A stretch of DNA of 64,000 nt. Source: Hyphococcus sp. (GTDB taxonomy: Bacteria; Pseudomonadota; Alphaproteobacteria; Caulobacterales; Parvularculaceae). Made by a program: the position numbers and the translations under genes. Position 1 is the first letter of the stretch. Each line of letters opens with the position of its first letter. Location of the stretch: positions 62,001-126,000 of the forward strand of contig JABDJK010000080.1 of NCBI GenBank assembly GCA_013002535.1, in the 5' to 3' direction. Shown here one piece after another: positions 4,877 to 18,499 of the stretch. The notes under the pieces are model-generated. The model was not told the origin of the DNA and did not search any database. It saw nothing but the letters and a program-made list of their open reading frames with translations.

Positions 4877-6340
4877 ATGCCGACACCCCCCCCCGTAGAT
4901 GCGCCAGCTCACGACCTAGTTTATTGCGATTCACCAGAAGCCGCCGTTGAGCGCCTAATTTATCTTTATGATGAGGCGCATTCGAAACTTCAGGCGCGTT
5001 TTGAGCAATTTATGGAGGGGGATTATGCGCCCGACGATGGGTATGCACCGGCCTATCCATATTTGTGCGCCAGCGTGCCGGCGGAAGCCGCCCCGCAAAC
5101 CTCAAAGCTCGCCTTGGGGCGCGTTGCTTCGGCTAGCATTCATGGCGCCTCGATAACGCAGCCACGGCTGTTTGAGCATTATTTTCGCGGGCAGATTGCA
5201 AGAATTATTGATCGGTTCTCGGCAAAAATTTTTGTTGGAAAATCCTTCACGCCAATCCCGCTTTCGTTCGCGATCGAAAAAGCGACTGCGGCGTTAAGCC
5301 AGGAGAGACGGAACGAACTTCAATATCATTTTCATACGCCAAACCTTGTTGCGACGAACGATGATATTGTAGACGGCCAATTTGTATTGAAACGCTCCGG
5401 CCCATTGCCGTTATCGCTATTCTCCGCAGAAAGGGTCGATTATTCGCTGCACCGTATTCAGCATTATACGGCCACTAAGCCAGACAGCTTTCAAGACTTT
5501 ATTCTGTTCACTAATTATCAGCGGTATGTTGATGAGTTCGTTGAGTACAGTTTGAAGGAAGTGGAGGCCGGTCGGGCTGCGTCATTGATAGAGCCTGGAG
5601 ATGTCGTTTCTACAAAAGGAAAAGCGGGGCAAAGAGGATCGGCGCGTTCACCGCAAATGCCCGCATATCATCTAACGCAGCCTGGCCATCAGGGGATAAC
5701 GCTCGTCAATATTGGCGTGGGCCCCTCTAACGCAAAGACAATAACTGATCATCTCGCCGTCCTGCGCCCGCAAGTTTGGCTTATGATCGGCCATTGCGGT
5801 GGGTTACGGCGAACGCAGCGGCTCGGAGATTATGTGCTGGCGCATGCATATTTACGCGAAGACAACGTTTTGGATGATGTTTTGCCGCCGTCAGTTCCAT
5901 TGCCGACGCTCGCCGAAGTGCAGTTGGCGATGACTAAGTCAGTTTCCGAAGTTTGCGACATCGACGAAGTAAAACTGAAAGAACACTTACGTACAGGCAC
6001 CGTCGTAACGACGGACGACCGAAACTGGGAATTGAGATTTGAACGCAACGCCGTTCGCTTGAACAAGGCGCGCGCGATAGCGATTGATATGGAGTCAGCG
6101 ACAATCGCGGCAAATGGATATCGGTATCGGGTCCCTTACGGCACGTTGTTGTGTGTTTCAGACCGACCGCTCCACGGCGAAGTTAAATTGCCGGGTATGG
6201 CAGATGCTTTCTATCAGGAACGGGTTAGCCAACACCTCGAGATTGGTGTGCGTGCAATCGAGATCCTGAGAGCCGATGCAAAACGCGGCGCCCTTCATTC
6301 CCGAAAATTACGAAGTTTCGACGAGCCGTTTATGCGCTGA
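4877..6340 (+). CDS. amn: AMP nucleosidase
   Basis: A 487-residue enzyme cleaving AMP to adenine and ribose 5-phosphate in purine salvage. The N-terminal AMP-nucleosidase domain (about residues 15-190) is followed by a nucleoside-phosphorylase-like catalytic domain with LMIGHCGGLRRTQRLGDYV, VVTTDDRNWEL, IAIDMESATIAANGYRYRVP and LLCVSDRPLHGE. The length equals that of the E. coli enzyme. AAAGGA lies 5 bp before ATG 4877. It converges with the glutaminyl cyclase gene 18 bp downstream; the palindrome TCTGGGCCCAGA lies between them, without a T-run. Confidence 0.92.
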   Translation: MPTPPPVDAPAHDLVYCDSPEAAVERLIYLYDEAHSKLQARFEQFMEGDYAPDDGYAPAYPYLCASVPAEAAPQTSKLALGRVASASIHGASITQPRLFEHYFRGQIARIIDRFSAKIFVGKSFTPIPLSFAIEKATAALSQERRNELQYHFHTPNLVATNDDIVDGQFVLKRSGPLPLSLFSAERVDYSLHRIQHYTATKPDSFQDFILFTNYQRYVDEFVEYSLKEVEAGRAASLIEPGDVVSTKGKAGQRGSARSPQMPAYHLTQPGHQGITLVNIGVGPSNAKTITDHLAVLRPQVWLMIGHCGGLRRTQRLGDYVLAHAYLREDNVLDDVLPPSVPLPTLAEVQLAMTKSVSEVCDIDEVKLKEHLRTGTVVTTDDRNWELRFERNAVRLNKARAIAIDMESATIAANGYRYRVPYGTLLCVSDRPLHGEVKLPGMADAFYQERVSQHLEIGVRAIEILRADAKRGALHSRKLRSFDEPFMR

Positions 6341-6358
6341 ATTGTTCTGGGCCCAGAG

Positions 6359-7138
6359 CTAGTTCAGCCGCGGCGTTAACTCAATTTCGTAAATCCAAGG
6401 CCAATTTTTTCCCGTAACGAAAAGTCTTTCGCTTTCCGCGTCGTAGGCTATGCCATTCAGGACGTCGGTTTCACCCTTCACGTAATCCTCATCAGGCAAT
6501 ATGCCCCGCATATCAATCACGCCGGTCACCTTTCCAGATGCGGGGTCTATGCGTACGATAGCATTCGTCTGATAGACGTTGGCGTAAACTTCGCCATCGA
6601 TCCATTCTAGCTCATTTAGAGCGGATACTGGACGATCGCGAAGTGTGACATCGACCGATCCCAAGATGTCAAACGTTTCTGGGTCGATGAACTTCAAAAT
6701 TGAAGAGCCGTCGCTCATCACCAGATGTTCGCCATTGCTGGTCAAACCCCAGCCCTCTCCGAAATATTGAAAACTTCGTTTCTGCTTCAGAGAGGATGGG
6801 TCGAACACCATTCCGTATTGTTCGCGCCAACTTAAAACGTAAATTTCTCCATTGTGAATTACCGAGCCTTCGCCAAATATTTGGTCCGGTAATTCCTGCT
6901 CCGCCGCGACTGCGCCCGTAGTAATTTTGATCCGCCGTAATTTTGACTGTCCGTATTGGCCTGTCGTTTCGAAAAGATCGCCGCTGTAGAAAAACAGCCC
7001 TTGTGTATAGGCATCTGTACTGTGCGGAATTTTTGAAATGACCTTGTATTCATAATAGACCGGTGCGGTGTCCGCCCGAACCGGCTCCGCCATTCCTGCA
7101 AGGATAAAAAAGAAAATTGAAACAAAAACCATAGTCAC
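6359..7138 (-). CDS. Glutaminyl-peptide cyclotransferase (bacterial beta-propeller type)
   Basis: A ~259-residue secreted protein of the glutamine cyclotransferase family (five-bladed propeller), which converts N-terminal Gln of proteins to pyroglutamate. An N-terminal signal peptide (VFVSIFFFILAGMAEPVRA) is followed by PHSTDAYTQGLFFYSGDLFE, GEGWGLTSNGEHLVMSDGS, ELEWIDGEVYANVYQTNAIV and LNGIAYDAESERLFVTGKNW, all family hallmarks. The GTG at 7138 overlaps the stop of the acyltransferase gene (GTGA), implying coupled translation; ATG 7132 is an alternative. Its tie to a ceramide-synthase-like gene is unexpected. The enzyme assignment is firm; a role in lipid metabolism is not supported by sequence. 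Confidence 0.88.
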   Translation of the reverse strand: MTMVFVSIFFFILAGMAEPVRADTAPVYYEYKVISKIPHSTDAYTQGLFFYSGDLFETTGQYGQSKLRRIKITTGAVAAEQELPDQIFGEGSVIHNGEIYVLSWREQYGMVFDPSSLKQKRSFQYFGEGWGLTSNGEHLVMSDGSSILKFIDPETFDILGSVDVTLRDRPVSALNELEWIDGEVYANVYQTNAIVRIDPASGKVTGVIDMRGILPDEDYVKGETDVLNGIAYDAESERLFVTGKNWPWIYEIELTPRLN

Positions 7139-8280
7139 AAAGTTTTTTCGTAAATCCGATAGGTTTTATAAATTTCTGCGCCCATATCAGTTAACATCGT
7201 CAACATGGCAGGATTGGTTTCTAGTATCCAGGATAATTCCGACTCGGTAACACCGTGATCCATGTTCGCAGAATTTACCATGTCTATGATTTTGTAGGCA
7301 AATGCCGCACCGACGGGTTTCCCCTGTAGGCGTTTTCGCACGCCCATCAAAGGCATTCTGGCTTTTGTTACGCCCTTGACTTTTAGGCGCCATAGAAATT
7401 TCGCCCAATTGAACGGCAATAGTCTTCCATTAAAATCTCGAGTGACTTCGTTTATATTTGGCAAAACGAGGCCAAATGCGGCGGGTTCGCCATCATAGTA
7501 GCAAAGCACCACATTATACTTTGAAATGATCGGCCGAAGCTCGCTTGCCATATGTTTGGCGTGATCTTCGGTAAACGGAATAAAGCCCCAATTATCAGAC
7601 CAGGCGTCGCTGTAAATATCGATAATGATTTTGATATCGCCAAGTAAGTCGCTCGCGTTCAGGCTGCGGATCGAAACCTTCGGACTCGAAAGCGCTTTTT
7701 CGACAAATCGAAGACGTTTTTCCGGGATAAATTGACGTTTTGGCATATAGCGCAATGCGTACATATCCATCGCTTTTGAAAATCCATTCGCCTCAATCAG
7801 CTTTTGGTAATAGCGGCGCCCATGGGGCATCATGATATAAGGCGGCGAATCAAACCCGTCGATCAGCATGCCGCATTCTTCATTTACGGAAAAATTAAAT
7901 GGCCCCGCGATTTTTAACATCCCTTGTTGACGTAGCCATTCGGATGCCGTTTTCAGGAGGCCGGTTGCGACATCAGACTCGTCTATAGACTCAAAGAATC
8001 CAAAGTGCCCTGCGCCATCATTATAGTGATTGATGTGCCCTTGATTTACAATCGCGGCAATCCTGCCAACAGGGGCGCCATTTTTGTACGCGACCCATAA
8101 TTGGTTCGGCGAGCCCCTTAAGCCTGGGTTCTTTTCAGGATCTAAGCGTGGTCCTATTTCAAATTCCAGAGGCGCAACATAATTTTCATCGTCAGCATAT
8201 ATTGATGACGCTAGCCTGATAAATTTCTTGCGTTCGGAACTGGTGTTAACTGGCTTTATCTCGACTGAGCCGTCACTCAT
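7135..8280 (-). CDS. Ceramide synthase-like N-acyltransferase (GNAT fold, bCerS candidate)
   Basis: A 381-residue protein of the family often mislabelled dATP pyrophosphohydrolase, with two GNAT-like halves (LWVAYKNGAPVGRIAAIVNQ; VVLCYYDGEPAAFGLVLPN). In Caulobacter a protein of this family acts as bacterial ceramide synthase, acylating the sphingoid base. Here it lies just downstream of the serine palmitoyltransferase operon on the same strand, which supports that role (family knowledge plus context). Start ATG 8280 has AGGGA about 8 bp upstream; a TTG at 8313 is less likely. No membrane segment is evident. It overlaps the glutaminyl cyclase gene by 2 bp. Confidence 0.7.
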   Translation of the reverse strand: MSDGSVEIKPVNTSSERKKFIRLASSIYADDENYVAPLEFEIGPRLDPEKNPGLRGSPNQLWVAYKNGAPVGRIAAIVNQGHINHYNDGAGHFGFFESIDESDVATGLLKTASEWLRQQGMLKIAGPFNFSVNEECGMLIDGFDSPPYIMMPHGRRYYQKLIEANGFSKAMDMYALRYMPKRQFIPEKRLRFVEKALSSPKVSIRSLNASDLLGDIKIIIDIYSDAWSDNWGFIPFTEDHAKHMASELRPIISKYNVVLCYYDGEPAAFGLVLPNINEVTRDFNGRLLPFNWAKFLWRLKVKGVTKARMPLMGVRKRLQGKPVGAAFAYKIIDMVNSANMDHGVTESELSWILETNPAMLTMLTDMGAEIYKTYRIYEKTL

Positions 8281-8338
8281 GGATTGCTGTTCCCTGCTGA
8301 AGCAAGACGCCAATAGGATCGAATGATTGGATTTAGCG

Positions 8339-8833
8339 TTATCGCAGACGAATAGCTACCTTTGCGCCGTCGGCAGTGACTTCAAAGATTGCTTTGGATA
8401 CGTGCGGCGCTGAAAACCTGACACGTGGATTGTTTGATATTCCCCATGGTTCGGCGGGCAAACCAAGGCCCGTGCGATCGAGAGATCCATTAGCATTTCG
8501 GTCGTGGTAAAGCGCGATGGCGTATAGACCGGGTTCGGGTGCTGTCATGCAGTAGGCGGTGAATGGTTCACGCGCGGCAAACCGAACTTGTTTTACTCGT
8601 TGTTTCGGCTTCAGGAATGTTTCTTCGTTGTTAAGATAAAGGTCCGCCGCCACCAATCCGACGCTTTTTTCGACGTTTTCAATAATAACGCGAATTTCGT
8701 TTTCGCCGCCGTTACAACTTACATGTAAAAAATCAAACTCTGGCGCGGAATCTGCGAATACCGTGGATGGCGTTGCGGTTAACAACAAGCCTGCTGGAAG
8801 GGTGAGGCGCACTAAACGTAAACGCAAACGCAT
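8339..8833 (-). CDS. DUF2141 secreted protein
   Basis: A 164-residue protein with a signal peptide (LVRLTLPAGLLLTATPSTVF then ADS) and a single DUF2141 beta-sandwich. The family signature is clear: YAIALYHDRNANGSLDR then GLGLPAEPWGISNNP. The DRNANGSLD loop resembles a calcium-binding turn. The function of DUF2141 is unknown; it is presumably periplasmic or outer-membrane associated. ATG 8833 gives a proper signal peptide, and the longer GTG start at 8878 does not. It lies between the serine palmitoyltransferase and ceramide-synthase-like genes, all leftward. A second DUF2141 gene is at 59279. Confidence 0.82.
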   Translation of the reverse strand: MRLRLRLVRLTLPAGLLLTATPSTVFADSAPEFDFLHVSCNGGENEIRVIIENVEKSVGLVAADLYLNNEETFLKPKQRVKQVRFAAREPFTAYCMTAPEPGLYAIALYHDRNANGSLDRTGLGLPAEPWGISNNPRVRFSAPHVSKAIFEVTADGAKVAIRLR

Positions 8834-8938
8834 TACAAAATTACCCAATACACAGTTAACACTTGCCACTTTTGCCACAGAAATGTGGCCTGGGCGTGGA
8901 CTTTTTCTTGTTAACGCAAAAGTGAAGCCAAACCCAAA

Positions 8939-10132
8939 CTAAGACGCGAGCGCCTCAGAAAGCGCAGTATATGCGCCAACAACCGCATCCAGATCTTCGT
9001 TCGTGTGCGCGGCTGATACACTTAATCGAAGAATGGAAGTCGCGTTTGGCGTTCCAGGCGGGATAGCCAAGTTTACGTATACGCCGTGGTCCATCAAAAA
9101 GTTCCACGCCATAAACGCTTGTTCACGATTTGCCATTTTGACAGCGATCACGGGGCTGGTCTCAGCGCAAAGTTCAAACCCAAGCTGCGTAAACGCCGCA
9201 TGAATTCGGTTCGCATTTTCCCATAATGAAGTCCGCATCGATGCATCTTCGGCGATTTTTTTTAGTGCAGCATTCGCCGCCGCGATGTTCGCCGGCGACG
9301 GCGATGCGGTGAACATATATGGCCGACTTGAAAAGCGAAGATATTCAAGTTCGGGATGGTTCGACATCACAAAACCGCCGATGGAGGCTAGGCTTTTCGA
9401 AAAAGTACCGGTGTAGAAATCGACATCCGCTAATACGCCATCTCGTTCACAAACGCCGCGGCCCCCGTCTCCGAATACGCCAAAGGAATGAGCCTCATCC
9501 AGCAATAGCTGTGCGCCGTGCCTATGTGCGACTTCCACAAATTCCCCGACAGGCGCGACGTCGCCGAACATTGAATACATGCCTTCGATACAAACGAGTT
9601 TGCCGGAAACGTTTTCATCTAGTCGGGACAGCCGCTTGTCCAAGCTCTCGGGGTCATTATGGCGGAAACGAACGGTTTGCGCGCCGCTAAGTTGGCAGCC
9701 GTCATAAATGCATGCATGGCAATCTGCGTCGATTAAAATGACGTCGTTTGGCGGTTGCGCCAGCGCGCTAATTGCGCCGAGATTTGCCTGGTAACCGGTA
9801 GAAAAGACGATGCAATATTTGTAGCCAGCAAATTCAGCCAAGTCATTTTCGAGTTTTCGATGCGCAGCGTAAGTCCCGTTTGCGAAACGCGAACCTGTTG
9901 TTCCAGTGCCGGCCTCATCGATGGCGATTTTCGCAGCATCAACCGCGTCCTTGTTGAAAGTCATGCCGAGGTAATTGTTGGTGCCGGCAAGGACGATTTC
10001 CTTGCCTTTTACGATTGCCCGCGTCGGCCCTTTTATTTCGTCCATTGAAACGCCGAATGGGTCGCGTTCGGTCGCCGCGACGAGCGCGTTATATTGTTCG
10101 GCTGTGCTCTTAAATTTATCGAAAAGGCTCAT
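8939..10132 (-). CDS. spt: Serine palmitoyltransferase (alpha-oxoamine synthase)
   Basis: A 397-residue PLP enzyme of the alpha-oxoamine synthase family. It shows TNNYLGMTFN, GTGTTGSRFANGTYAAHRKL, LLLDEAHSFGVFGDGGRG, the PLP-lysine motif YTGTFSKSLASIGGF (Lys near residue 244) and RLSVSAAHTNEDLD. The family also holds KBL, BioF and HemA; the neighbours (ACP, CerR-like reductase, acyl-ACP ligase) identify this one as serine palmitoyltransferase, condensing Ser with an acyl thioester to 3-ketosphinganine. ATG 10132 lies three bases after the ACP stop, so the two are translationally linked. The dedicated ACP suggests acyl-ACP rather than acyl-CoA as donor (inference from Caulobacter). Confidence 0.87.
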   Translation of the reverse strand: MSLFDKFKSTAEQYNALVAATERDPFGVSMDEIKGPTRAIVKGKEIVLAGTNNYLGMTFNKDAVDAAKIAIDEAGTGTTGSRFANGTYAAHRKLENDLAEFAGYKYCIVFSTGYQANLGAISALAQPPNDVILIDADCHACIYDGCQLSGAQTVRFRHNDPESLDKRLSRLDENVSGKLVCIEGMYSMFGDVAPVGEFVEVAHRHGAQLLLDEAHSFGVFGDGGRGVCERDGVLADVDFYTGTFSKSLASIGGFVMSNHPELEYLRFSSRPYMFTASPSPANIAAANAALKKIAEDASMRTSLWENANRIHAAFTQLGFELCAETSPVIAVKMANREQAFMAWNFLMDHGVYVNLAIPPGTPNATSILRLSVSAAHTNEDLDAVVGAYTALSEALAS

Positions 10133-10135
10133 CAA

Positions 10136-10399
10136 TCAGGACTGTTCTTTTTTGAGATCATGGATGGCGTCCACCAACTCACCAATCGTTTTAATTTCTG
10201 ATATGGTGTTTACTGGAATTGAGATGTCGTAACTATCTTCGATGTCCATGACGATATCGAGAACAGATACAGAATCGATTTCAAGGTCTGCGATCATGTC
10301 AGTCTCACGCGTAAGTTTAACGCCCTTGTCGTTTAAGGGCTCTATCAACGAAGCAATTTTTCGAAATACAAGATCGTCGTCTTCTTGAATGCCTGACAT
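10136..10399 (-). CDS. Sphingolipid-pathway acyl carrier protein
   Basis: An 87-residue acidic acyl carrier protein. The phosphopantetheine site is DLEIDSVSVLDIVMDIED, with the acceptor Ser near residue 43, preceded by a long helix and followed by ISIPVNTISEIKTIGELVDA. ATG 10399 has AGAGGG upstream; a TTG at 10414 is less likely. It lies between the CerR-like reductase and Spt genes in the same order as the Caulobacter ceramide locus, so it probably presents the fatty acyl group made by the adjacent ligase to Spt. It is distinct from a housekeeping AcpP (fatty-acid genes are elsewhere at 54.7-57.4 kb). Confidence 0.87.
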   Translation of the reverse strand: MSGIQEDDDLVFRKIASLIEPLNDKGVKLTRETDMIADLEIDSVSVLDIVMDIEDSYDISIPVNTISEIKTIGELVDAIHDLKKEQS

Positions 10400-10436
10400 A
10401 TAATCCCTCTCCAACCGTTCGTTGGCTTAATCCTGT

Positions 10437-11360
10437 CTATAGCAAACCGTTCGCACGATACCAATCGATCGTTTGTGCAAATCCTGCTTCCAGGGTGATC
10501 GCTGGACGCCAAGCCGTGGTGCTAGACAGCAAATTTTCGCGCGCAACCCAATCTGGATGAAAAAATTCATTGACTTGCCCAATCCTTACACTCGGGCCTT
10601 TTCCGGAAATACGCTCGAAAGCCGCAAGAATTGCATGATAGACAGAAATCATCGATTTGGGGACTGGGAGATGTCTTGGTGAGATACCTAGCGCGCGGCC
10701 CAGCGTGTCGCTGATCTCCCGCCACGAGCGCCCGTCTTTGGTATCATCGCCGACTTCATAAATGGCGCCGGGCGGCGCCTCTAACGCCGCAGCGACAATC
10801 GCCGCAGCGGCGTCGCTAACGTGCAGTAATGTTGCTTTTGCAGGCGGGTTCGTGTTCGGGGCCGGCGCCCAGCCGGCAGCAACTGTTTTGAAAAAAGGCA
10901 GTGTCGCTGAATCGCGAGGCCCGTAAATGGCTGGAAGACGAAGTGAAACCCAGCTTCCGCCCGTATCGGCCACCGCATCTTCGCCCTGCCGTTTGCTCAT
11001 TGCATATGGAGAAACGCTCGGCTGCCGCGCCGATAGCGATGATATATGGATTAAAACGGCTTGCGCGGATTTAGCGGCTGCGGCGATATTTGAGGCGCCA
11101 CGCACATTTATCTTCTCGTAGTCATCGGCGCGCTTCGGGTGCGTCACGCCCGCAAGGTTAATGACGAAATCCGCTCCTTCACACAGCATTTTTAGCGCAA
11201 CGGGATCGTCAAGATCGCCCGCAATAATCTGTAAATGTTGATCGCCCTTAAAAGCGTCTGGATTGCGAATTAGCGCGGCAACTTCAAAATTTCGTTGGCG
11301 AAGAATGTCCAGGAGTTCGCGGCCTATAAACCCGCTGGCGCCCGTTACGGCAAATCTCAA
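10437..11360 (-). CDS. cerR: NAD(P)-dependent epimerase/dehydratase, ceramide reductase-like (CerR)
   Basis: A 307-residue extended short-chain dehydrogenase: the nucleotide-binding TGASGFIGRELL at the N-terminus, AGDLDD, NLAGVTHPKRA, catalytic YAMSKRQGE (Tyr-x3-Lys) and RLPAIYGPRDSATLPFF. In Caulobacter the equivalent gene reduces the keto group of the oxidised ceramide intermediate. The gene starts two bases after the stop of the acyl-ACP ligase gene and ends 37 bp before the ACP start, so it is part of one operon. The substrate assignment rests on conserved order; other epimerase/dehydratase substrates cannot be excluded from sequence alone. Confidence 0.78.
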   Translation of the reverse strand: MRFAVTGASGFIGRELLDILRQRNFEVAALIRNPDAFKGDQHLQIIAGDLDDPVALKMLCEGADFVINLAGVTHPKRADDYEKINVRGASNIAAAAKSAQAVLIHISSLSARQPSVSPYAMSKRQGEDAVADTGGSWVSLRLPAIYGPRDSATLPFFKTVAAGWAPAPNTNPPAKATLLHVSDAAAAIVAAALEAPPGAIYEVGDDTKDGRSWREISDTLGRALGISPRHLPVPKSMISVYHAILAAFERISGKGPSVRIGQVNEFFHPDWVARENLLSSTTAWRPAITLEAGFAQTIDWYRANGLL

Positions 11361-11362
11361 TT

Positions 11363-13135
11363 TTACACGCGCGCTTCCGCCATAGCTGGCGAGGCCTCAG
11401 CAGCAGATTTGGCGACAGTCTCGTCGAAGGCGCCGTCAAGATATTTTTGTTTTACTTTTGCACGGGAGAGTTTTCCGGAGGAGGTCATGACCATAGAGTG
11501 CGGACGCGCCAAAACAATTGTTGCCGGTGCGCCAGCAGCATTTTGTATGACTTTAGCAATTTCGCGCTTCATGATTTCGCGAGCCTCATCATCCATACCC
11601 CGTCGCTCTACGACCACTACAATCTTTTCGCCTTGCCCGTCATCGACAGAAAACGCCGCGACGCCGCCGCTTCGAACGCCTTCAACCTTCTCCACCGCCC
11701 ATTCAATATCTTGTGGCCAGATGTTTCTTCCGTTGATTATGATGAGATCTTTTGCCCTGCCGGTGATAACGATTTCACCGTCCAACATGTAACCCATATC
11801 ACCGGTATCGAGCCACTCTCCGTGATACATCTCAGCCGAAGATTTCGGCGCGGAATAATATCCGGGCGTTAGGCTTGGTCCTTTTATAAAAATGCGTCCG
11901 ACGACGCGTTCATCGACCGCATCGCCCTTTTCGTTGCGCACCTCAATGTCGTGACCCGGCAGTGCAGCCCCGCAAAGTACAAAGCCTCGATTATGTTCGG
12001 GTGATGTAACCGCAGAAGCTGGTTGGGCAATGCCTGATCGCGTGTAGTGGCGCATATCAACTTGGTCGACGATAATTTCTCGGTCCAGTTGCGGAAAAGC
12101 AATCGCAAGTGTCGCCTCCGCCATGCCGTAACTGGGCGTGAACGATTTTCGCGAGAAACCGAATGGTTCGAAAGCGTCAGCGAAAGCATTCAAGGCTTCA
12201 GCGCGCACCATATCGCCGCCGATGCCCGCAACACGCAGTGTACTCAGATCGATTGACCCCGGCTCGGCGCGCGCGGATCGTTTTGCTGCTAAATCATACC
12301 CAAATGAGGGGCTATAGGTTAGCGTGGCTTTCTGATCACTCATAATCCGTAACCAGAGTAAAGGCCGCCGGACGAAATCCGACGTTGACAGGTAGTCTAC
12401 CGATAATTGTGCGAATAGCGGCGCCAGCAAAAATCCAATCAAGCCCATGTCATGATACAGCGGAAGCCAGCTTACGGCGCGATCGCCGGCCCGGGCCATT
12501 AAACCATGGCGCGTAATTGCCGTTAGGTTCGCGGTAACGGAGTTTTGCGTACCGATAACGCCCTTTGGCGCACTCGTTGAACCTGAAGAGTATTGAATGT
12601 AACAATTTTCGCCAGGTCCAAATGGCTTTGCTGCGGTCGATCCTATTGATAACGCCGCGACCTCCTCAAAATCGAGAATTTCTACGTCACCTGAATCTCC
12701 GGCGGCCTCCATAAGGAATTCTTTAAGCTCCGCCGGACCGATTGCGGCGGCCGCGTCGGCGCCTGAAATCATTTGCGTAATTTGCCGTAGATATCCGTCC
12801 TTGCCGCCAAGGTTCACCGGCATCGGCATCGGCGCCGGCACTAACCCTGCGCATTGGCAGGCAAAGAAAGTCAGCAAAAAAGTTGGGCTGGTTTCGGCAA
12901 TAATTGCAATACGCGCCCCACGTTCGTAACGCCCAGCAAGTTTATCGGCGAGTAATTTCGCTTTTTCGAGAACTTCGGCATACGCCATCGAGGCATACAC
13001 TTCGCCGCGCAGATTAAAGAAGTTGACGCCAGTTTCGCCGCGCGCCGCATAATCAAGCGCTTCAGGGATGCTAGCGAAGCCGCCAGCTTGATGTTCAAGG
13101 GTCTTGTTTGCGCTTGGTGTCGACTGGACTGCCAT
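11363..13135 (-). CDS. Fatty acyl-AMP ligase / acyl-ACP synthetase
   Basis: A 590-residue ANL-superfamily enzyme: the P-loop YIQYSSGSTSAPKGV, WLPLYHDMGLIGFLLAPLF, SYGMAEATLA, EWLDTGDMGYMLDGEIVITG, RAKDLIIINGRNIWPQDIEW and the C-terminal Lys in TSSGKLSRAKVKQKYL. This is the fatty acyl-AMP ligase branch (FAAL/acyl-ACP synthetase) rather than FadD. It is the first gene of the leftward sphingolipid operon and likely loads a free fatty acid onto the adjacent ACP for Spt. The promoter must lie in the 335-bp divergent gap to its right. Confidence 0.87.
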   Translation of the reverse strand: MAVQSTPSANKTLEHQAGGFASIPEALDYAARGETGVNFFNLRGEVYASMAYAEVLEKAKLLADKLAGRYERGARIAIIAETSPTFLLTFFACQCAGLVPAPMPMPVNLGGKDGYLRQITQMISGADAAAAIGPAELKEFLMEAAGDSGDVEILDFEEVAALSIGSTAAKPFGPGENCYIQYSSGSTSAPKGVIGTQNSVTANLTAITRHGLMARAGDRAVSWLPLYHDMGLIGFLLAPLFAQLSVDYLSTSDFVRRPLLWLRIMSDQKATLTYSPSFGYDLAAKRSARAEPGSIDLSTLRVAGIGGDMVRAEALNAFADAFEPFGFSRKSFTPSYGMAEATLAIAFPQLDREIIVDQVDMRHYTRSGIAQPASAVTSPEHNRGFVLCGAALPGHDIEVRNEKGDAVDERVVGRIFIKGPSLTPGYYSAPKSSAEMYHGEWLDTGDMGYMLDGEIVITGRAKDLIIINGRNIWPQDIEWAVEKVEGVRSGGVAAFSVDDGQGEKIVVVVERRGMDDEAREIMKREIAKVIQNAAGAPATIVLARPHSMVMTSSGKLSRAKVKQKYLDGAFDETVAKSAAEASPAMAEARV

Positions 13136-13482
13136 TTACGCCCCCGCAATTTGGCGAGTTAAAACCGCCATTTTCTTACCTCAGCATAACGGCGCATCCC
13201 CCCGCGCCCGCTGCTACTATATGTTTTACGGGTCGCCCCGCCAAATTCGCCCGTAGCTTTACTTCCACAAGTCTGTGCATTGCACAAAAATAAGCAGATA
13301 CAAAGCTTTAGCGGGCCGTGCCAGGGGTCGCTTTGTTGCACCGCATCAAATTTTACCCAGGCCTTTTACAAAATACGAATTGGACGCCCGCGTCAATCCG
13401 CCGTCCATGCTTGAAGTCGGCAGTCTCCGCGCATAGTTTCCAGCGACATGGCGTGGCGATTTTTGCCAATATGCCTCAACGG
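13136..13482. promoter_or_regulatory. Divergent intergenic region of the sphingolipid locus
   Basis: No convincing gene in about 345 bp. It separates the leftward ligase operon from the rightward hydroxylase gene and should contain both promoters. AATTTGGCG (13148-13156) and CGCCAAATT (13239-13247) form a 9-bp inverted repeat about 80 bp apart, a possible looped operator. No clear -35/-10 pair could be chosen. Confidence 0.4.
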
Positions 13483-14253
13483 ATGAGTAAAATGCGGATT
13501 TTCGTCGGCTACAAGGCGTGGAAAAGTGAAGAATATCTGCTGAACCGGATGACCTTCGACGACCTTGTTCGCGCCTATATCACCTATCCAGCCATACAGA
13601 TATACGCGCTAATTCTGATTGGCTCTCTTGCCATAGGTATTTGGAAAATGGGGGCGATTTGGCCGTTTTTGGCCTCGATTGCGGCTGGAATGCTACTCTT
13701 TCCGTTCGCGTGGTACGTCACACATCGGTTCATTCTTCACGGCAGCTGGATGTTCAAGACGCCATTCTTGGCGAGCTTGTGGAAACGAGTTCACTACGAT
13801 CATCATCGCTTTCCGAATGATTTATCCGTGCTTTTTGGCGGCCTGCATACCACGCTTCCAACCATTTTCCTGGCGGCGGGTCCATTGGGGTGGCTCATTC
13901 ACGGCGCCGCCGGCGCTGCAGGCGCAATAGCTGGAACGGTCATCATGACTTGCGTTACAGAATTCCTTCATGCCGGTGAACACCTCGCTTTTGAGCCAAA
14001 ATCAAAATTCTGGAAAGACATGAAGCGGCGGCATTTGGCGCACCATTTCCACGATGAGTCCGGTAATTTTGGAATAGCTGAATTCTTTTGGGATCGGATT
14101 TTCGGTACGTTTTATGACAAAACAGAAGAGCGCAACCGCAGCGCAACGGCTCGAAATCTTGGTTACACTGACGAAACAGCCAAGAAGTACCCTTGGGTTA
14201 AAGAGCTTACCGACGCTGAGCCGCAAACAAAACAAGCGATGCGCTCGTCATAG
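13483..14253 (+). CDS. Sterol desaturase / fatty-acid hydroxylase superfamily protein
   Basis: A ~256-residue membrane di-iron hydroxylase. The eight-histidine motifs are visible: HRFILH, HYDHHRFP, HAGEHL and HLAHHFHDESGNFGI. Two hydrophobic hairpins precede and separate them (IQIYALILIGSLAIGIW, FLASIAAGMLLFPFAWYV). This superfamily hydroxylates lipids at the membrane, including sphingoid bases and ceramide acyl chains. Placement head-to-head with the sphingolipid operon suggests a hydroxylated ceramide product (inference). The start is uncertain among ATG 13471, 13483 and 13492; none has a strong ribosome binding site, and the open frame back to 13318 is not family-like. Confidence 0.8.
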   Translation: MSKMRIFVGYKAWKSEEYLLNRMTFDDLVRAYITYPAIQIYALILIGSLAIGIWKMGAIWPFLASIAAGMLLFPFAWYVTHRFILHGSWMFKTPFLASLWKRVHYDHHRFPNDLSVLFGGLHTTLPTIFLAAGPLGWLIHGAAGAAGAIAGTVIMTCVTEFLHAGEHLAFEPKSKFWKDMKRRHLAHHFHDESGNFGIAEFFWDRIFGTFYDKTEERNRSATARNLGYTDETAKKYPWVKELTDAEPQTKQAMRSS

Positions 14254-16593: not shown

Positions 16594-16622
16594 AAAAGGC
16601 CGCTATATTAGCGGCCTTTTTT
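16594..16622 (+). terminator. Intrinsic terminator shared by hppA and the convergent peroxidase gene
   Basis: AAAAGGCCGCT (16594-16604), loop ATATT, AGCGGCCTTTT (16610-16620), then further T: a perfect 11-bp stem with a T-run, working rightward for hppA. The mirrored A-run provides a shorter T-tract leftward. The last codons of the peroxidase gene (Lys-Gly-Arg-stop) are read from this hairpin, with the stop codon starting in the loop at 16610. Confidence 0.92.
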
Positions 16623-18362
16623 GTGTCGCCGTTCGGGTGAGGCATTGCTAACGTAAAATACATTTTTCGGAATTTCCCGGCGCCGGATATCGGTGTTCGC
16701 CACGATTATGTCGCTTAAACGCACATGCTTGATCATCGCCTTTTCAGGACGGGTGAGATCTCGTTCCCACCAAAAACGGTCGAAGTCGCGCAAAGCTGTA
16801 AACTGGTGAACCACAATAGCGCGGAAAGTCTCGCCGAGTTGCGATCCCTCACCGGGTAATGAATCTTCGCTGACGCCGCCCACCCAAAGGTCAATGTCAT
16901 CGACATCGGCATACGCCATTGCGAGTTTTTCGCTGACGGAAACGTTCGACGAAATGTCAGAAAAATCCGTTGCCCGTTCAAGGCCGAGCGCTTCGCGCAC
17001 ATCGTTATATGACGGCAACCCGCGATCACGGCCACGTTGGATATTGAGTGCGGCAAGATCAAATCCGCCAGCGCCGGGCGGACCAAATAAAAAATTTCGG
17101 AGATCATCGACAATCATATTGTCGAATGCTTGGCTCTTTTGCGCCGCGAGCCCGCGAAGCACCGGGTCAATGTCATTTCTCGATGTTAGCAGTATTGGTG
17201 CATTGAAAAATGCATCGCGCAGCTCAAGATGGCCGTCAGCCACCTCGTGACCATCGCCGTCGATTCTCAACAATTTCTCGTTGATCAACGTATGCCCAAG
17301 TCGATAGGCGGCGCCGGAAAATTCCGTGAACAGACCGGGATTACCTTCGCGATACCCGCGATAGGGCGGCATTGCGTCTTCGCCGATCAGCGCTGGTAGA
17401 AATTCATTGTATGTGATGATTTGAATTTCAGCGATTACCATTCGCCTGGCGGCGAAATATATGTCGTCACCAGAATACCACGGCCGCATTCGTTTAATTT
17501 GATCAGCCCATCTGTTGTGCTCGCGTACAAACAGTGTGTGCATAACGGTCAACCCGATTTGTTCATTTGAACGGACATCCCCGGCGACGAAAAGCTCTGC
17601 CGGATCGATCGGCCCTTCGTTTGCATTTGGCAACAGTTCGGAATTCAGCGGCAGCAAATCACCGGGGCTGGTTTTCAATCGCCCGGTTCCATCATTGGCG
17701 CGCAAGGCGGCAGCGCGATCAGCACTCGACCCGTAGACCATAGAGCCGTCAATCCACGACGTTATTTCGTTCAACTGTTCGCGTGGGTTCTCAAGATCTG
17801 TGCCGGTCGCATCATCAAACAAGGCCCGATCAAAACGGATACGCACCTCACCGGTTCTGAATGGATCGAAATCTGGATCTCCAATAGGAACGACAATATC
17901 GTGCGATCTGTCATTGCTCTTTACAGCATCGCCTAAGGCGACGTCGTGATCGATAAATTGACCCCACTGCCATAAATAATCACTAGTATCGAATAAATTT
18001 GGAAATGATTGGTCGTCTTGATCTACAACTAGATTGCTTATCTCCCTCCCGCCCGCTCGGGTGGCCCCGGCCATTTCAGAAATGCCATCTGCATAGTCAT
18101 TAGGCGCAAGGCGCAACAATTGTTCAAATGCCGCGCCGGCTGCCGGGTCGCTTAAATTATTGCCTGAACCGTCAAAACTTCTGAACTCACGGGATTGATT
18201 AAATACGCGTGATCCAGAACGTTTTTTCGATGCTTCAAATGCGTCTTTGTCGCGCTCAATATTTTGAGCTGGTGACGGTTGCCCCTTTGCATGGCTCGCC
18301 GGGGACAATGACATCGCCAACAGGCCAAGTGCAATTTGTGCGGTAAAAACACATTGTTTCAT
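16608..18362 (-). CDS. Secreted animal-type haem peroxidase
   Basis: A 584-residue protein of the animal haem peroxidase (peroxidasin/cyclooxygenase) superfamily. A signal peptide (FTAQIALGLLAMSLSPASHA) is followed by SDYLWQWGQFIDHDV, whose His is the distal haem ligand, the Asp-rich calcium loop DPDFDPFRTGEVRIRFDR, SWIDGSMVYGS, MHTLFVREHNRWAD, the proximal-His region AYRLGHTLI and LNIQRGRDRGLPSYNDVREA. It probably oxidises halides or phenolics outside the cytoplasm. ATG 18362 follows GGGAGGGAAACTA, a strong ribosome binding site, and excludes the longer start at 18416. The gene stands alone; its 3' end lies within the terminator hairpin of hppA. Confidence 0.9.
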   Translation of the reverse strand: MKQCVFTAQIALGLLAMSLSPASHAKGQPSPAQNIERDKDAFEASKKRSGSRVFNQSREFRSFDGSGNNLSDPAAGAAFEQLLRLAPNDYADGISEMAGATRAGGREISNLVVDQDDQSFPNLFDTSDYLWQWGQFIDHDVALGDAVKSNDRSHDIVVPIGDPDFDPFRTGEVRIRFDRALFDDATGTDLENPREQLNEITSWIDGSMVYGSSADRAAALRANDGTGRLKTSPGDLLPLNSELLPNANEGPIDPAELFVAGDVRSNEQIGLTVMHTLFVREHNRWADQIKRMRPWYSGDDIYFAARRMVIAEIQIITYNEFLPALIGEDAMPPYRGYREGNPGLFTEFSGAAYRLGHTLINEKLLRIDGDGHEVADGHLELRDAFFNAPILLTSRNDIDPVLRGLAAQKSQAFDNMIVDDLRNFLFGPPGAGGFDLAALNIQRGRDRGLPSYNDVREALGLERATDFSDISSNVSVSEKLAMAYADVDDIDLWVGGVSEDSLPGEGSQLGETFRAIVVHQFTALRDFDRFWWERDLTRPEKAMIKHVRLSDIIVANTDIRRREIPKNVFYVSNASPERRHKKGR

Positions 18363-18499
18363 TAGTTTCCCTCCCAGAATTATCAAAATATTCGCTGGGA
18401 AAGAAAAAATATTCAAGCGCTGTCATAAAACAGGATATTCAATGGTTAAATTCGCGCTATGAGCGAATATATTTTTAAATCTCGATGGCAAGGCAACGT

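Follow-up and report, generated by a model that had tools for sequence, protein, structure and literature searches.

In Caulobacter crescentus five genes are required for ceramide, one of them coding for the acyltransferase CC_1154, of which Escherichia coli YghO has been listed as an ortholog; the Spt of E. coli BL21 has been demonstrated to follow a 3-oxo-sphinganine route together with AcpR and AasR (PMC9386255). The order of the subsequent acylation and reduction is debated (PMC11087976). Hydroxylation marks many sphingolipids. P450-type fatty acid 2-hydroxylases occur in Sphingomonas and functional FA2H-like enzymes in some myxobacteria (PMC10002949). In Caulobacter, ceramide hydroxylation influences the sensitivity to polymyxin-type antibiotics; the DesA-family protein CC_0202 is held responsible for hydroxylation of the amide-linked acyl chain, and its loss leads to colistin resistance (PMC11324152). 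The present analysis concerns a stretch of 64,000 nucleotides from Hyphococcus sp. (contig JABDJK010000080.1, positions 62,001 to 126,000; the window), which contains a minus-strand cluster of sphingolipid genes and, divergent from it, a gene for an FA2H/Scs7-type fatty acid hydroxylase (FAH). The whole is likely best explained by a Caulobacter-type ceramide route, with hydroxylation of its product by FAH and addition of a head group by enzymes encoded on another contig, C52. Since the five Caulobacter genes are all present and the ceramide synthase (CerS) is of the Spt-linked type, the pathway is of a known kind; it is widespread in Parvularculaceae, and what this locus adds is the linked FA2H-type gene.

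The genome under study measures 3.4 Mb, and its named close relatives are Marinicaulis and other Parvularculaceae. Co-occurrence was surveyed in 200 Caulobacterales genomes, this one counted among them. Two of the families mentioned below, f3 (Caulobacteraceae) and f5 (Hyphomonadaceae-like), were assigned by inference from their gene content.

Genes and order of the ceramide cluster

The five genes are all located on the minus strand. The cluster begins with aasR (11363–13135), coding for a fatty acyl-AMP ligase or acyl-ACP (acyl carrier protein) synthetase that is predicted to load AcpR. This is followed by cerR (10437–11360, with a TTG start), coding for a predicted ketosphinganine or keto-ceramide reductase, by acpR (10136–10399), coding for a dedicated ACP, and by spt (8939–10132), coding for serine palmitoyltransferase. 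A gene for a DUF2141 protein with a signal-peptide-like amino-terminus (8339–8833; PF09912) precedes cerS (7135–8280), coding for a putative bacterial ceramide synthase of the CC_1154/YghO family. All are intact open reading frames, separated in this order by gaps of 2, 37, 3, 105 and 58 bp. The first three gaps are exactly those given in an original prediction made from the sequence, which had also correctly placed the pathway genes on one strand and cerS two genes past spt, the DUF2141 gene being the single one in between. That prediction had called the pathway nearly full; the genes are there as claimed, but the "nearly" can be dropped, all five genes required in Caulobacter having been found. 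Because related Parvularculaceae loci show this order too wherever their contigs cover the region, the cluster is not a chance arrangement.

Spt scores 580.5 bits against the curated NF047599 model (cut-off 500), as expected of the proteobacterial type, and contains the FSK lysine motif. AasR scores 701 bits against the curated fatty acyl-AMP ligase model NF006624 (cut-off 600), also matches PF00501 and is 42% identical to the ligase of the E. coli BL21 cluster. The cerR product, an extended SDR protein (PF01370) with GASGFIG and YAMSK motifs, is 33% identical to the BL21 protein encoded at the same position, and its gene is syntenic with that of BL21 and with Caulobacter-like cerR; the spt operon includes this CerR-type SDR. 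In AcpR (PF00550), the phosphopantetheine serine is located within a DSV motif. The dedicated AcpR and AasR are both linked to spt, with gaps of 2–37 bp.

CerS is 39–40% identical to YghO of E. coli BL21, and 39–44% identical when the CerS proteins of Caulobacter-type clusters are compared as well. It matches no Pfam or NCBIfam model at cut-off, the matches of its homologs are mostly weak ones to GNAT, and a search of the PDB with its sequence gave nothing significant. The AlphaFold2 model (predicted local distance difference test, pLDDT, 92) has a tandem GNAT fold, nearest to glucosamine N-acetyltransferase, a clavulanate-pathway tandem GNAT protein and mycothiol synthase. A fold as generic as this, without a Pfam match at cut-off, would also suit a GNAT protein acting on another amine, in which case a free long-chain base or another aminolipid would be the product of the cluster. 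This is very improbable in view of the near-perfect co-occurrence of CerS with Spt: a strong Spt is present in 66 of the 200 genomes and a strong CerS in 64, every one of which is Spt-positive (64/66), and of the two Spt genomes without CerS, at least one has a contig that stops at the expected CerS site. Genomes lacking Spt contain weak CerS homologs only, at 23–28% identity. In most genomes cerS clusters with spt, and the identity to YghO and the Caulobacter-type proteins also argues against another amine as substrate. In a quick tree, calculated with SH-aLRT support and without bootstraps, the Spt-linked CerS proteins (the window protein, YghO and those of Caulobacteraceae-type clusters) come together in a single group with a support of 99, and the homologs from Spt-less genomes fall outside. 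On the basis of tree and co-occurrence together, an unrelated GNAT protein is rejected. The tree also answers the phylogenetic check proposed with the original prediction, under which grouping of the acyltransferase outside the ceramide synthase clade would have spoken against it: the protein lies inside the Spt-linked CerS/YghO group. Judging from its genes, the cluster almost certainly directs ceramide synthesis in this organism, and the predicted presence of ceramide lipids is supported by the complete five-gene set, the Spt and ligase models and the CerS clade.

The distance between spt and cerS is 628–1036 bp in 23 Parvularculaceae genomes, with the DUF2141 gene in between in all 23. In most other families it is 4.5–8.0 kb, the intervening genes being the CC_1161-like gene, the kinase gene and LptF/LptG. 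In family f3 the distance is 6.7–8.0 kb in 13 of the 14 genomes containing both genes (in the fourteenth they are on different contigs), so the statement in the original prediction that the Caulobacter synthase gene is several genes away was right. Gaps of only 72 and 174 bp are found in two genomes of two other families. Since the order is kept in the 23 Parvularculaceae genomes and shorter gaps exist elsewhere, compactness is a trait of the family and not a peculiarity of this organism; the locus is compact, as had been predicted, but not unusually so, and the compact order can be ruled out as exceptional. In two genomes (G119 and G153) spt and cerS are 135 kb and 557 kb apart, showing that linkage is not obligatory.

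The FA2H/Scs7-type gene beside the cluster

The FAH gene (13492–14253, plus strand) is located just outside the region of the original prediction (7135–13135), on the opposite strand, and was not mentioned there. Its product of 253 amino acids scores 76.5 bits against PF04116 (cut-off 31). By sequence, the only solved structure with a significant match is that of Scs7, which hydroxylates the fatty acid of ceramide in yeast, with E-values of 3e-7 for the single sequence and 1e-12 for the profile. Four histidine motifs, HRFILH, HYDHH, HAGEH and HLAHH, align with those of Scs7, and His78, His83, His101, His104, His105, His160, His164, His181, His184 and His185 are invariant in 18 FAH homologs. 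The AlphaFold2 model (pLDDT 82) matches Scs7 in Foldseek with an E-value of 2e-4 and a probability of 1.00, and superposes on it with a VIA Z-score of 14.3 over 197 residues and a root mean square deviation of 3.5, the next unrelated chain having a Z-score of 6.3. A PF04116 paralog from the same genome, used as a control, did not match Scs7. An amino-terminal cytochrome b5 domain, as present in the eukaryotic enzymes, was not found in FAH, which consists of the hydroxylase domain only; it is therefore FA2H-like rather than a eukaryotic-type FA2H.

FAH is present in 25 of the 200 genomes, all of them among the 66 Spt-positive ones (Fisher p = 2e-14, uncorrected for phylogeny). In 22 genomes, which are all those that could be checked, its gene shares a contig with spt or cerS and is no more than 3.8 kb away from one of these; in the other three the contigs break there, and in one of these (G010, locus L083) FAH stands beside AasR, CerR, ACP and a truncated Spt. 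The position of the gene varies among at least three sites: divergent upstream of aasR in most Parvularculaceae, between the DUF2141 gene and cerS in a further genus of Parvularculaceae and in one of family f5, and beside spt in two genera of family f4. Plasmids of Roseomonas mucosa and R. gilardii have a full sphingolipid locus in which the FAH gene immediately precedes cerS and overlaps it by 4 bp. That the gene is found repeatedly beside these partners suggests that they function together. The Roseomonas cerS homologs (L103, 10086–11243, and L106, 24820–25977) are labelled "dATP pyrophosphohydrolase", apparently a misnomer; correction of this label, and of "sterol desaturase" for FAH, is suggested.

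Several observations weigh against the overall reading. Ceramide production in this organism is a prediction from its genes, and CerS is without a curated family model, its reference YghO having been assigned by sequence. The second LptF/LptG pair, which usually accompanies Spt, was not found: this draft genome has two PF03739 genes (contig C13), while at least four are present in each of the other 26 Spt-positive Parvularculaceae searched, and four in other members of the genus. The difference may reflect a genuine loss or an incomplete draft. FAH is lacking in five of the 27 Spt-positive Parvularculaceae and in most other Spt-positive genomes, and is therefore accessory. A homolog 47% identical to FAH (L104, 11968–12729) is encoded on a plasmid of Sphingomonas, away from any sphingolipid genes. 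Finally, PF04116 covers other activities as well and Scs7 was the only PF04116 structure among those compared, so the match to it favours the superfamily and its chemistry more than an exact substrate, and cannot tell acyl 2-hydroxylation apart from hydroxylation at sphingoid C4 or from action on another lipid.

The cluster might make ceramide with FAH as a neighbour serving a carotenoid, an ornithine lipid or a phospholipid. The functional diversity of PF04116, the orphan homolog on the Sphingomonas plasmid and a weak match of one cluster FAH homolog to the ornithine-lipid hydroxylase OlsE, far below cut-off, fit such a role, but it is unlikely: none of the 200 genomes has FAH without Spt, the gene occupies several sites in sphingolipid clusters, being either coupled to cerS or next to it in other lineages as well as in Roseomonas, and the further six PF04116 genes of this genome are distant. 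FAH probably acts on the sphingolipid of the cluster. Within that molecule the sphingoid base may be considered as the target, with FAH acting at C4 in the manner of Sur2 and producing phytoceramide, instead of on the N-acyl chain. Sur2 comes from the same superfamily as Scs7, and no Sur2 was among the structures compared. This alternative appears rather doubtful, as the only solved relative of FAH, both by sequence and by fold, is the acyl 2-hydroxylase Scs7; the argument is a weak one because the references did not include a Sur2-like protein, and we would give action specifically on the N-acyl chain an even chance.

Returning to ceramide hydroxylation as the preferred function, it is reasonably likely that ceramides are hydroxylated by FAH in Parvularculaceae, several other Caulobacterales and Roseomonas, and that this enzyme, encoded inside ceramide operons, is a bacterial equivalent of the sphingolipid hydroxylase of eukaryotes. 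It is predicted to be a third bacterial solution to this reaction, unrelated to the P450 enzymes of Sphingomonas and to the DesA-type CC_0202 of Caulobacter. In the open-access literature, no FA2H/PF04116-type ceramide hydroxylase was found reported from a bacterial ceramide operon or cluster. Because FAH is strictly linked to spt and cerS, its role can be tested directly, and this compact locus offers a handy complete set of ceramide and hydroxylase genes.

Between aasR and FAH, a conserved stretch (13287–13324) was identified in an alignment of nine loci, with the consensus TTGAGCGGATACAAG...GGTCAACGGGCAAG; it is a possible candidate for a shared promoter or operator of the two genes. Scanning for sigma-70 promoters and terminators gave sites no more numerous than in shuffled sequences.

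Head group, predicted pathway and neighbouring genes

Absence of a head-group pathway in this genome is ruled out by a small, unlinked cluster on contig C52 (locus L080), made up of a CC_1161-like gene (5126–6025) and genes for a DAGK-type kinase (6035–7021), a metallophosphoesterase (7075–8037) and a CpgD-like nucleotidyltransferase (8034–8828). The CC_1161-like protein, the DAGK-type kinase and the CpgD-like cytidylyltransferase expected for the Caulobacter pathway to the CPG/CPG2 head group are all present, their orthology being deduced from 27–37% identity to another Caulobacterales cluster. Relatives of the metallophosphoesterase occur in another Parvularculaceae head-group locus and in the Roseomonas locus. 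The pair formed by the CC_1161-like and kinase genes is unevenly distributed in the genus, being absent from about half of the species with Spt; therefore, some of these species may keep their ceramide as such or attach a different head group.

From these gene identities we infer the following steps. AasR would activate a fatty acid and load it onto AcpR, and Spt would condense the acyl-AcpR with serine. CerS, as a tandem-GNAT N-acyltransferase, would attach the second acyl chain, and CerR would reduce the keto group. FAH, presumably a di-metal membrane enzyme of the FA2H/Scs7 type, would then hydroxylate the ceramide, with the N-acyl chain as the most likely target, and the products of the C52 locus would add a head group of the phosphoglycerate type.

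The DUF2141 gene is located next to the CerS or Spt gene or within the cluster across Caulobacterales and in Roseomonas. It can be ruled out as exclusive to sphingolipid clusters: weaker homologs exist in many Spt-less genomes, the closest ones being in the cluster. Our guess is that the protein is a periplasmic helper; the literature search yielded no paper tying DUF2141 to sphingolipids. The start of a gene for an exported glutaminyl-peptide cyclotransferase (6359–7138, minus strand; PF05096, 307 bits) overlaps the stop of cerS by 4 bp. The gene is found directly downstream of cerS in many relatives, although not in all, and it is probably a passenger. Near the cluster, and beside it in several relatives too, a large protein of the animal haem peroxidase family is encoded (16608–18416; PF03098, 496 bits).

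Comparison with described systems

In Caulobacter crescentus, the same five genes (CC_1165–CC_1162 and CC_1154) are present as in the window, with the same aasR-cerR-acpR-spt order and a homologous cerS downstream of spt on the same strand. There, spt and cerS are separated by seven genes, CC_1161–CC_1155, mostly for head group and transport, while here only the DUF2141 gene lies between them and the head-group genes are on another contig. Ceramide hydroxylation in Caulobacter is ascribed to the DesA-family CC_0202 (PMC11324152), whereas the candidate here is the FA2H-type FAH. The E. coli BL21 cluster (yghO and ECD_02851–02854) also contains all five genes, which are contiguous in that organism, as has been remarked before (PMC9386255); yghO is divergent and located upstream of aasR, and both FAH and the DUF2141 gene are lacking.

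FAH shares the set of histidine motifs and the fold of the hydroxylase domain with yeast Scs7p and animal FA2H, to which it is about 20% identical; these contain a cytochrome b5 domain that FAH lacks, and the activity of FAH is a predicted one. In the Roseomonas mucosa plasmid locus, the FAH gene adjoins cerS and is accompanied by DUF2141, metallophosphoesterase, kinase and CpgD-like genes. Everything, LptF/LptG included, is united there in one locus, whereas in Hyphococcus sp. the head-group part is separate.

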